DNA of 64,000 bases, from the NCBI RefSeq assembly GCF_006861655.1, contig NZ_SESI01000002.1:248001-312000 (forward strand), written 5' to 3'. Positions within the stretch are counted from its first letter, which is position 1, and every line of letters starts with the position of its first letter. Position numbers and translations under genes: made by a program. The notes under the pieces are model-generated. The model was not told the origin of the DNA. It searched no databases and worked only from the letters and a program-made list of their open reading frames with translations. This stretch comes from Halonotius roseus. Its GTDB lineage: Archaea > Halobacteriota > Halobacteria > Halobacteriales > Haloferacaceae. Positions 6,115 to 15,681 of this stretch are shown here, one piece after another.

Positions 6115-6225
6115 ACCGACTACCCGGTATCAACCCACAAAAACGCGCGGGCTTCGGGGGCGTCAGCTTGGGATGCAGTATAGCTACGGTCGTGCTCAGA
6201 TAAACGGACAAATGGGAACCGCTTC

Positions 6226-6328
6226 GAAAGCCCCGACGCGCTGGAGTCGGGGGGCTCGCTGCGCGCTTCGGGCCTGCGGCCCTGCAGTGCTTGCGTCGCC
6301 CGTCTTCCTCCAGCGCGTCGCCCCTTTC
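6226..6328 (-). repeat. GAAAG...CTTTC structured element, copy A1
   Basis: Read on the minus strand, the element opens with GAAAGGGGC and closes with GGGGCTTTC. Directly inside are the two arms of a perfect 13-bp stem (plus-strand 6234-6246 CGACGCGCTGGAG with 6308-6320 CTCCAGCGCGTCG). The interior holds GACGCAAGCACTGCAG (6282-6297) and GCGCGCAGCGAGCCC (6252-6266). These two inner boxes recur in copies A2 and B while the stem sequence does not. It is back to back with copy A2. No ORF is supported in it. It could be a structured RNA or a hairpin-ended non-autonomous repeat; the function is unknown. Confidence 0.7.
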
Positions 6329-6383
6329 AGTCCCGCCCGACCGCGGCTGCCTGACCAGCCGACACGGGTGGGACTGAAAGGGG
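6321..6383. repeat. 18-bp inverted repeat joining element copies A1 and A2
   Basis: The outer 5' ends of the two divergent copies face each other. CCCCTTTCAGTCCCGCCC (6321-6338) pairs with GGGTGGGACTGAAAGGGG (6366-6383) at 17 of 18 positions, the exception being a G-T pair. The 27-nt loop contains a second hairpin, CGGCTG...CAGCCG. A GGCTGATCAGCC palindrome also lies just before copy B (14432-14443), so this small hairpin may be a regular 5' part of the element. Confidence 0.7.
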
Positions 6384-6585
6384 CCGGCGTCTCGGCGAAC
6401 CCGGCCGACGTAAGCACCACAGCGAACGCAGTGAGCGAGGAGCGCAGCGAGTCCCGGGAGTTCTGCGAGCTGGGCGGGATCTACGATCCCGCTGGAAGCC
6501 GGCCGTAGGCCGGCGACGAAGCGAGCAGAACCTCGAAAGACGAGCGCAAGCGAGTCTTTCGGTGGCCGATCCGCCGGGGGCTTTC
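6376..6585 (+). repeat. GAAAG...CTTTC structured element, copy A2 (expanded)
   Basis: Opens with GAAAGGGGC and closes with GGGGGCTTTC. The closing arms are CCGGCG (6384-6389) and CGCCGG (6572-6577). The inner boxes are GACGTAAGCAC (6407-6417) and GCGCAGCGAGTCCCGGGAG (6442-6460), the last shared with copy B. Compared with A1 and B it is about 100 nt longer. The extra sequence has its own hairpins: GTTCTGC/GCAGAAC (6460-6466 with 6525-6531), GCGGGATC/GATCCCGC, GCCGGCC/GGCCGGC and CGAAAGAC/GTCTTTCG. Between the boxes runs a purine-rich GCGAACGCAGTGAGCGAGG stretch. Together the two copies fill most of the 535-base gap between fen and bolA. Confidence 0.68.
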
Positions 6586-6649
6586 GAGATAGTCACAACC
6601 CAATCAACCTACTCTAAACAATACCATAGCCGCCCGCGAAAATGATAAT

Positions 6650-13469: not shown

Positions 13470-14342
13470 CTATTCCTGATCGGTCGCCCGCGACGATGGT
13501 GGCTCGTCGACCGCGAGTTCGCCTGAGAGTTCGTGTTGGGTCGTCGTACTGAGGTCGATACCAGTGTCGTCGAACCGTTCTTTCACGGTGCGAATGTACT
13601 CGGAACGGGTCTCCGAAAACTCCTCGCGGTCGGGGTTGTCGATCCAGAACCGGGACTGCAGGAGTACTGCGGAATCGCCGAGTTCGGCGACTCGTACGGA
13701 GGGCTCGGGATCGTCGAGGATTTCATCGTGGTCGGCGGCCGCAGCGAGGAGGATTCGCGTGGCTTCGTCGATATCGTCGTCGTAGCCGATCCCGACGGTG
13801 TAGGAGATACGCAGCGTCTCGTTGCTCATCCGATTGGTGACCGGCGTCGTCGCCAGCACCGTGTTCGGGACGGTGATCGTCTCGTTGTCGAAGGTGCGAA
13901 CGCGGGTCACGCGAAAGCCGATGTCGTCGATAAAGCCCGCCTTGTCGTCCCACTCGATCCAGTCATCGATGGTGAAGTTACGATCCTGGACGATGAAGAC
14001 GCCGGCGACGAAGTTCGAGATCACGTCCTGGGCGGCGAACCCGACCGCCAGCGTCAGCGCGGCGACGATGAGCGCGGAGCCGCCCAACAGCCCGCCGAAG
14101 CCGGCCGCCGCCGCGCCGACGGCCAGCGTGGCGACGATGACGCCCACGTGGAGCGTCTTCTGGAGAGCCCGCGTGAGCGTCGGGTCGAGGTCGCGGCGGG
14201 CGAACAGCCACGCGACAGCCGGCTCCAGCAGATACCGACCGAGGATGTAGACGACGGCCGAAACGACGAGCAACTCGGCTAGCTGCGCGCCGACGGCGGC
14301 ATATTTCGGCAGGAGGCTGCTGATTGACTGCGGGAGGCCCAT
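13470..14342 (-). CDS. Small-conductance mechanosensitive channel (MscS family)
   Basis: A 290-residue membrane protein starting at MGLPQSISSLLPKY. Three to four helices occupy the first 120 residues, with the pore helix AGFGGLLGGSALIVAALTLAVGFAAQDVISNFVAGVFIV rich in Gly/Ala as in MscS TM3. The beta domain follows with FTIDDWIEW, VTRVRTFDNETITVPNTVL, then an alpha/beta C-terminal domain. MscS channels release solutes on hypo-osmotic shock, relevant for a halophile. A second, divergent MscS gene is at 39844-40800. The upstream gap holds structured element copy B. Confidence 0.9.
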   Translation of the reverse strand: MGLPQSISSLLPKYAAVGAQLAELLVVSAVVYILGRYLLEPAVAWLFARRDLDPTLTRALQKTLHVGVIVATLAVGAAAAGFGGLLGGSALIVAALTLAVGFAAQDVISNFVAGVFIVQDRNFTIDDWIEWDDKAGFIDDIGFRVTRVRTFDNETITVPNTVLATTPVTNRMSNETLRISYTVGIGYDDDIDEATRILLAAAADHDEILDDPEPSVRVAELGDSAVLLQSRFWIDNPDREEFSETRSEYIRTVKERFDDTGIDLSTTTQHELSGELAVDEPPSSRATDQE

Positions 14343-14613
14343 GCCACAACGCCCGGTAACCAGGAACCTAAGGCTTGCTGGTAAATCGGTAGGCGGTGTT
14401 GAGATACGAGCAGCCAAGCAGATGGGTCGGCCGGCTGATCAGCCGCCACCCTGGCGGATTGAAAGGGCGAGACGCTCTCGACGAGCCCGGACGAAGTAAG
14501 CACTGCAGGAGCGAGCGTAGCGAGCGACGAAGCGCGCAACGAGTCCCGGGAGTCGAGAGCGTCGAGGGCTTTCTACCTCCATCCATCTCAGAAAGCTGCT
14601 CGATTAGATCCGA
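14343..14613. other. Intergenic gap holding element copy B
   Basis: No gene is supported. The region starts at the mscS start codon and ends at the pelota stop codon, both on the minus strand. Its centre is the structured element described separately. To the left, a GGCTGATCAGCC palindrome (14432-14443) sits in the same position as the small hairpin before copies A1/A2. Confidence 0.6.
14461..14573 (+). repeat. GAAAG...CTTTC structured element, copy B
   Basis: Opens with GAAAGGGC and closes with GGGCTTTC. The inner stem is a perfect 12-bp pairing: GACGCTCTCGAC (14471-14482) with GTCGAGAGCGTC (14552-14563). The stem has a different sequence from that of copy A1. The inner boxes GACGAAGTAAGCACTGCAG (14490-14508) and GCGCGCAACGAGTCCCGGGAG-like sequence (14532-14552) match the other copies; AAGCACTGCAG is identical to A1 and GAGTCCCGGGAG to A2. 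Between them runs a purine-rich GAGCGAGCGTAGCGAGCGACG segment. Confidence 0.72.
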
Positions 14614-15681
14614 TTACTGCAAGCGATACCGCAGCAGCGCGGCAATTCCACCAAAGCTATCGAGCTGTTGGCCGGGCTGGAAATCCGATGAGAAGACGGT
14701 GATCTCGCCGCCCTGCTGTTCGACCGATTCGATCACGTCGTTGATGTCGAGGTCCCAGTCGCCGTCGCCCTGTCGTTCGTCCCGCAGGCGATTATCGAGT
14801 ATCAGGAGTTCCTCGACCGCGCCGAACTCGGCGGCCTCCTGTACTTCGTCGATCCCGTAGGCCGCTTTCGCGCCGTCGGCAATTCGCTCCATGAGTTCGT
14901 CGATGGTCTCGGCCTCGCGGGCGATCCGGGTTTCGTCCTGCACCTCCTCGACCGCGCCACGTTTCAGGACTTCGTGGACGCCCCGGCCGCCCGCGCTGGA
15001 GGTGTCGACGACGGTGATCAGGTCGGCGAGGTTGCGGTACTCCTCTTCGATGTAGTCGCGGGCGTCCTGCTTCGTGAAGCCAGGGCCGGCGAGGATGATC
15101 GCGTCGGTGTCGAGATGCGAGAGGGCGTCGCCCAACTCGGCGAAGAGTTCGTCGCGCGGGCGGGAGTACTCGCCCTTGCCGGTGGGTTTGGTGAAGGAGG
15201 CGTACTCGTCGACGCCGTACTCCTTGACGAGGTGGATGTAGGCCTCGCCTTCCTCGACGGTGGCGATGGCGACATCGGGGCTGTCGGCGGCCTGTTCGGC
15301 CTCCTCGATGCGCTCGATCTGGTCGGCCTTGAACTGTTTTTCAATCGTCAGTTCGTCGTGAGCCTCGACGTTGAGCGTGTGGTGGTGGCCGAGTTGATCC
15401 TCGCGGGAGCAGCCCGTGATCTCGCCGCCGACGCGCAGCCGGTTGGCGAAGCGGGCGAACTCCACGTCCGAGACTTCGATGGTCACCGAGATGTGTTCGC
15501 GCTGGCCGCCGGTATCGCGCATCTGGTCGTCGTCGCGTTGGATGCGTCTGGTGGTGTCACCGGAGACGAGATCGCCGGGTTCGAGGACGTAGGAGAGATG
15601 CCAGAGGTCGTCGACGGTTTCGGGCGTGAGCGTCAGCCGCTCGCGGCCGGCCTCGCCCTGCCCGCGGCTCGAAATTCGCAT
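14614..15681 (-). CDS. pelA: mRNA surveillance protein Pelota
   Basis: A 355-residue eRF1 paralogue. The N-terminal Sm-like domain starts [22 protein letters not shown] with [24 protein letters not shown], the standard Pelota/Dom34 signature. The central domain lacks the GGQ of release factors, and the C-terminal domain includes [15 protein letters not shown] and ending [11 protein letters not shown]. Pelota with aEF1A or ABCE1 rescues stalled ribosomes. Length fits archaeal Pelota. It is isolated between structured element B and the AT-rich accessory gene. Confidence 0.93.

Follow-up and report, generated by a model that had tools for sequence, protein, structure and literature searches.

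A covarying hairpin unit carried by IS6-type MITEs in Halonotius and present in most haloarchaeal genera

We read the three repeats A1, A2 and B in a 64,000-nucleotide stretch of Halonotius roseus DNA (hereafter the window) as members of a class-wide haloarchaeal family of structured units, which spreads through an IS6-type transposase acting in trans and whose unit works in folded single-stranded form, most likely as RNA; for this reading as a whole we put the probability at about 0.5. The dispersed family, its IS6-type vehicle in Halonotius, the conserved single-strand fold and the wide distribution are well supported, as is a structured core that is under constraint and spread by transposons. 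The copies lie where an earlier note on the window had placed them (A1 at 6226-6328 on the minus strand, A2 at 6376-6585 and B at 14461-14573 on the plus strand), however, instead of the three copies in all that were counted there, the 2.56-Mb genome contains at least 85-90 structured units by BLAST and a covariance model. BLAST of the window copies against their own genome (2,564,341 bases in 4 contigs, the window being C2:248001-312000) gave at least 91 and at least 45 matches and the covariance model gave 90, with a unit length of 108-114 nt. The window holds two elements, a double one at 6188-6625, in which A1 and A2 are arranged back to back, and a single one at ~14392-14620 with B, and their features are as follows.

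6188..6625, no strand assigned: complete double ("A-type") element from one outer terminal repeat to the other, the ends GGTCGTGCTCAGATAA and (reverse complement) GGTATTGTTTAGAGTA fitting the family TIR
6188..6207, plus strand: left terminal inverted repeat, IS6-type, core TGCTCAGATAA
6226..6328, minus strand: unit A1, apex GGCC-GCA-GGCC (GNA triloop)
6329..6375, no strand assigned: central hairpin joining A1 and A2, CCCGCCC...GGGTGGG with GGCTG/CAGCC
6376..6585, plus strand: unit A2, with accessory multi-hairpin insert
6461..6565, plus strand: accessory hairpin module in A2, fixed junction GGGAG^T...CGAG
6610..6625, minus strand: right terminal inverted repeat of the double element (TACTCTAAACAATACC)
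14392..14406, plus strand: left terminal repeat of the single ("B-type") element (GGCGGTGTTGAGATA)
14461..14573, plus strand: unit B, covariance-model match G000:C2:262460-262573 at 1.5e-23

The plus strand of the unit folds into one conserved hairpin made of covarying stems and fixed non-Watson-Crick motifs. The 33 single-element units of the genome align with one 6-nt length difference, and their fold is described here from the outside inwards. The outermost GAAAG/CTTTC stem is invariant, as is the internal loop next to it (GG/GG and C-GA-G/C-GA-G, a tandem G-A). A 12-bp stem of freely variable, compensated sequence comes next, and a GAA/A loop separates it from a 7-bp stem that has covarying pairs (G-C/C-G; A-T/G-C/C-G) and a single bulged C. 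Further in lie the 7x7 loop GACGYAA/GCAGCGA, which is strongly conserved, and a short stem whose last pair is T-A or C-G, capped by an apical hairpin of tandem G-A and triloop. Unit B displays the GAAAG/CTTTC outer stem, the GG/GG and CGAG/CGAG internal loop and the 12-bp covarying stem, and further in the GACG(Y)AA/GCAGCGA core loop and the apex GCGAGC-GTA-GCGAGC. A kink-turn reading of the core loop did not fit. In A2, ~100 nt of extra hairpins (6461-6565) lie between the inner and outer stems, and the perfect closing stem ascribed to each copy does not extend to this one, as two mismatches occur between its 5' and 3' arms. On the unit strand, RNA folding of A1 and B is better than 200/200 dinucleotide shuffles (z -4.0 and -3.1), and A2 gives a z of -3.8 against dinucleotide shuffles. 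The junction GGGAG^T...CGAG is occupied or unoccupied in other copies (L025 vs L316). Accessory hairpin modules of at least five kinds (e.g., CACCAGAAATC...GAGAGCGAAGCTCTC) were seen at fixed unit junctions, like expansion segments, in units of L009, L017, L019, L040, L043, L069, L085, L013, L024, and L047, and their loops are GNA or its complement TNC.

Covariation had been proposed from the three window copies, which are too few as proof, however, it is established by the 33 genomic copies and more strongly by 119 copies from other genera. Within the genome 15 of 32 pairs have two-sided changes with 98.2% of cells paired, and the covariation score is 0.326 vs. 0.124 for shuffled alignments and at most 0.055 with partners slid, the outcome being the same for each of two length classes alone. 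Across genera two-sided changes occur at all 32 modelled pairs, the outer stem included, where the first pair is G-C in 77 copies and C-G in 35. The cross-genus score is 0.644 vs. 0.151 shuffled and at most 0.08 slid, and it should be noted that this alignment was fitted to the model and is hence biased toward it, while the slid controls keep kinship and are not free of that bias. In both alignments the mismatch motifs are fixed while neighboring stems covary freely. The suggestion of selection on the folded structure, against which a lack of further compensated copies in related genomes would have counted, is borne out by the copies with compensatory changes found in relatives.

The vehicle of these units in Halonotius is a non-autonomous IS6-type transposon (MITE). 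It occurs in two arrangements, a double one of two inverted units around a hairpin center (~320-330 bp without inserts) and a single one of ~208 bp from TIR core to TIR core, and both end in inverted repeats that are imperfect and share the core TGTTCAGATAA. GAAAG/CTTTC, regarded in the earlier note as the ends, does not delimit the mobile unit, whose outer ends lie 38-70 bp further out here in TGTTCAGATA-like repeats; the right terminal repeat of the B element, at ~14605-14625, is decayed. The GGCTG...CAGCC hairpin, which had been taken to argue for one defined unit, forms the center of the double element and belongs to the left arm in the single one, and it is less conserved than the unit. 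A genome search with the TIR core also found two unit-free 687-bp spans, one with an intact ORF for a 213-aa IS6 transposase (NCBIfam NF033587, E 7.5e-56, 189 bits vs. a cutoff of 125; Pfam DDE_Tnp_IS240) and the other broken. The terminal repeat core (GG..)GTGTTCAGATAAG is common to the MITE and the 687-bp IS (G000:C3:354535-355227). IS6 elements are described as having 8-bp duplications, tips that start with GG and an internal CTGTT motif (PMC7986276), and the Halonotius ends agree with this description in each respect. Exact matches of the outer-flank 8-mers occur in 12 of 51 element-end comparisons vs. 0.2 expected from shuffled partners, with some elements counted from both strands, such that the 12 matches represent ~9-10 distinct elements; distinct exact duplications are those of L003, L005, L008, L012, L020, L026, L043, L048, and L069. 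The proposal of a mobile element therefore stands in its MITE-like form, however, not as an IS200/IS605 type, since TIRs and 8-bp target duplications indicate an IS6-family DDE transposase. These same features rule out an IS200/IS605 (PATE, omega-RNA) origin and a REP/REPIN type, and no unit was seen at tnpB ends in the unit-bearing loci inspected.

In the window's two elements a clean 8-bp duplication is no longer visible. Comparison of the gaps in relatives, as had been advised, found site A (between a FEN1-like gene and its neighbor) without the element in three same-genus genomes, whereas no clean empty site can be read at B because its surroundings are rearranged in relatives. The MscS-like channel gene beside B (window 13470-14417) is absent at the syntenic place in G001, G003, and G004, in which the Pelota-like gene is directly followed by another gene. 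Elsewhere, the intact IS6-type IS (L075:430-1130, G000:C3:354535-355227) has inserted at the right-hand terminus of a single element with its own 8-bp duplication AGTACCGA, and L078 (G000:C2:393740-393850) is a minimal double element left with two ends and one outer stem, apparently by template switching or hairpin deletion.

In old copies the unit is retained, whereas the terminal repeats and neighboring DNA have decayed. When 40 units from four same-genus genomes were set against 85 of this genome, 20 pairs proved orthologous in position, the kilobase on either side matching in each; one of these, L066-L328, we read as non-orthologous on account of its displaced right flank. Across 17 such comparisons, identity is 92% within the unit and falls to 74 and 76% in the adjoining 60 and 50 bp, which are part of the same original element. 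Paired positions at these sites show 31 two-sided compensatory vs. 18 one-sided differences, and 13 of 338 unpaired motif positions have changed. At a given junction, one ortholog may have an accessory hairpin that the other lacks (L025/L316, L356/L343). Some orthologous sites hold replaced or hybrid units (L014 vs. L336/L315; L066 vs. L332 and L346), such that recombination between copies probably also occurs, and ectopic recombination could be the source of part of the apparent conservation and paired changes. It is conceivable that the MITE is neutral and the unit passive, with hairpin-templated repair keeping the stems complementary and recombination among copies keeping them similar; the replaced and hybrid units of L014 and L066 agree with this, as do the near-perfect inserted palindromes. 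However, if palindromes were being corrected, Watson-Crick pairs would replace the fixed mismatches (GG/GG, CGAG/CGAG and the 7x7 core loop), and these are the most conserved positions, the adjoining parts of the element decay and the unit does not, and the strand asymmetry of the fold is unexpected from a symmetric DNA process. We therefore consider a passive unit improbable.

This asymmetry identifies the folded strand. G-T outnumbers A-C in the cross-genus stems (77 vs. 25), and of 81 apical triloops 58 are GNA and none is TNC; a symmetric double-stranded DNA process would give neither bias, and thus it is the plus strand of the unit that folds. With RNA parameters the covarying inner stems and the apex are recovered at 0.87 and 0.94 on the unit strand vs. 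0.47 and 0.28 on the opposite strand. DNA parameters give 0.58 for the inner stems and 0.05 for the apex, however, the DNA energy set has no terms for GNA loops and sheared G-A pairs, and the folding thus tilts to RNA without being decisive. We favor RNA, to which the RNA-energy folding and the tolerance of G·U point; single-stranded DNA would be possible given the GNA triloops, the unbiased orientation and an unrecognized promoter, none having been recognized by eye at the 5' side of the unit. The unit might in that case work without any RNA, its extruded hairpin (GNA triloops, tandem G-A) being a recognition or fork-pausing signal in transposition or amplification, much as REP/REPIN hairpins are signals for their TnpA. 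The double inverted arrangement resembles REPIN, orientation relative to genes is unbiased, and C-GNA-G loops are known to make DNA mini-hairpins exceptionally stable (PMC4686876, citing Yoshizawa 1997). Besides the GNA apices, 12 of the long-stemmed hairpins in this genome's elements have triloops, of which 10 are GNA or TNC. Against this, the TIRs and 8-bp target duplications indicate a DDE transposase that acts on double-stranded DNA, the covarying fold is missed by DNA parameters (with the gaps in that set mentioned above), and the unit is still conserved in copies with decayed terminal repeats. On balance we regard a purely DNA-borne role as rather unlikely, although it is the foremost of the rivals.

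In tandem gene gaps of three samples the unit lies along transcription in 56 cases and against it in 53, as judged with a simple home-made codon-bias gene caller and a loose unit pattern that counted some units inside ORFs, and a cis-acting RNA is therefore not favored. No preference for gene orientation or convergent gaps was seen across genera, and these statistics lend no support to a transcription terminator or UTR element. Of 14 retained Halonotius units, 11 have a co-directional gene 3' of them, the unit end usually lying ~55-100 bp before the start, although the sample is too small for a conclusion. This leaves space for a promoter and would suit a regulatory DNA site adopted by the host (insulator, terminator or nucleoid site) that is palindromic by chance, however, the absence of positional preference across genera and the compensatory stems, which double-stranded DNA sites do not need, make such a site very unlikely.

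Under the folded-RNA reading that we prefer, an IS6-type transposase would act in trans to spread the elements, of which the double copies would be the younger form. Once inserted, the unit would function in folded, single-stranded form, most likely as an RNA hairpin that arises when transcription from nearby promoters reads through it and that a host or element protein binds or processes, and its behavior would be comparable to that of ERIC or Correia repeats. Accessory hairpins would be added peripherally at junctions, without disturbing the core fold. We infer the mobilization in trans, the choice of RNA over single-stranded DNA, and the protein-binding or processing role.

Several known systems resemble this family in part. 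ERIC and Correia/NEMIS repeats are likewise dispersed, intergenic and MITE-like with long conserved hairpins, however, they are unrelated in sequence and the haloarchaeal unit is a multi-loop hairpin with fixed non-canonical motifs found in most genera of a class. REP/REPIN sequences with TnpA-REP (RAYT) share hairpins with conserved mismatches, often in inverted pairs, whereas the haloarchaeal unit is much longer, has IS6-type ends and a target duplication, and revealed no Y1 transposase partner in a non-systematic look. SMR and PATE elements of Haloquadratum walsbyi (PMC3119063) are also short (~110 bp), repeated, haloarchaeal and inverted-repeat or palindromic. SMRs lack a target duplication and insert into PATEs or IS605 palindromes, and PATEs have no terminal repeats and originate from IS605-type ends (PMC3119063), whereas the Halonotius elements have TIRs and 8-bp duplications in ordinary intergenic DNA; SMRs are set apart here by description. 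Archaeal IS6-family MITEs are likewise non-coding, near the insert-free ~330 bp of the double element, and have IS6-type ends, an 8-bp duplication and a genome that also encodes an IS6 transposase; a review of IS6 mentions two such MITEs, 227 and 336 bp long (PMC7986276), and MITEHarch3 is an ISfinder MITE named in another paper (PMC6807381). A haloarchaeal IS6 MITE is probably already in ISfinder (MITEHarch3, PMC6807381; the host being inferred from the name), and it may be a relative of the Halonotius elements, to which it is likened by description and not by sequence. These MITEs are known as sequence entries only, and in the literature searched no structured unit, covariation, class-wide spread or retention is reported for them.

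The covariance-model search across haloarchaeal genomes that had been recommended gave matches (E < 1e-6) in 241 of 294 genomes and 66 of 78 genera, with up to ~90 unit copies per genome; L115, a tRNA-adjacent match, was judged false. Matches were also obtained in 28 of 40 relatives and in 46 of 295 genomes of a phylum-wide sample, every one haloarchaeal, with none in the ~240 other genomes of the phylum, and a degenerate pattern scan of named GTDB genomes had only haloarchaea among the matches listed. Searches of IMG/VR (one pattern) and phage records gave 0 matches, so the unit is not a common virus feature. Rfam recovered only a tRNA in the window at the gathering threshold and nothing relevant in six unit-bearing loci at E up to 1, such that no known Rfam family accounts for the unit, nor was a description of it found in the open literature, with subscription papers outside the scope. 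A structure present in most haloarchaeal genera at such copy numbers is therefore without an Rfam family or a description in the open papers searched, and it would account for many hairpin-rich intergenic stretches of haloarchaeal genomes. Selection on the folded strand is seen both inside transposable vehicles and in their decayed remains, and the units supply many natural compensatory pairs for experiments; as haloarchaea are genetically tractable, the question of RNA vs. DNA is directly testable. More tentatively, and at less than even odds, the units may constitute an undescribed class-wide family of non-coding RNA (or functional single-stranded DNA) that uses unrelated transposon vehicles, is retained by the host after vehicle decay and is diversified by modular hairpin insertion at its junctions. 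If true, this would be a mobile structured-RNA lineage in archaea on a scale comparable to SINE-derived RNAs.

The vehicles of the unit appear to differ between genera. IS6-type ends occur in several families (L097, L272-L278, L286, L308), Halorubrum copies have a conserved GC-rich 5' module in place of such ends, and another genome has element ends of the form CCGCGAACAGCGTGAAAG. On the 3' side of the unit, one to three extra copies of the right-end sequence follow at intervals of ~55-70 bp in Halorubrum (GGCTGGGGCTTTGGAGG...; L302, L299, L297, L292, L160, L129) and in Haloglomus (GTGAGGGCTTCGTAGG...; L179), a pattern that would fit a duplication of ends or a loss of copies there. L110, L111, L113, and L114, in genomes with only a few matches, represent a divergent sub-family (GGTGGTCGCGGGATGCCGAGC...) in which a conserved GCCCGCCCCGCTCGCCGCGTTCCGCCCTCC stretch comes next.
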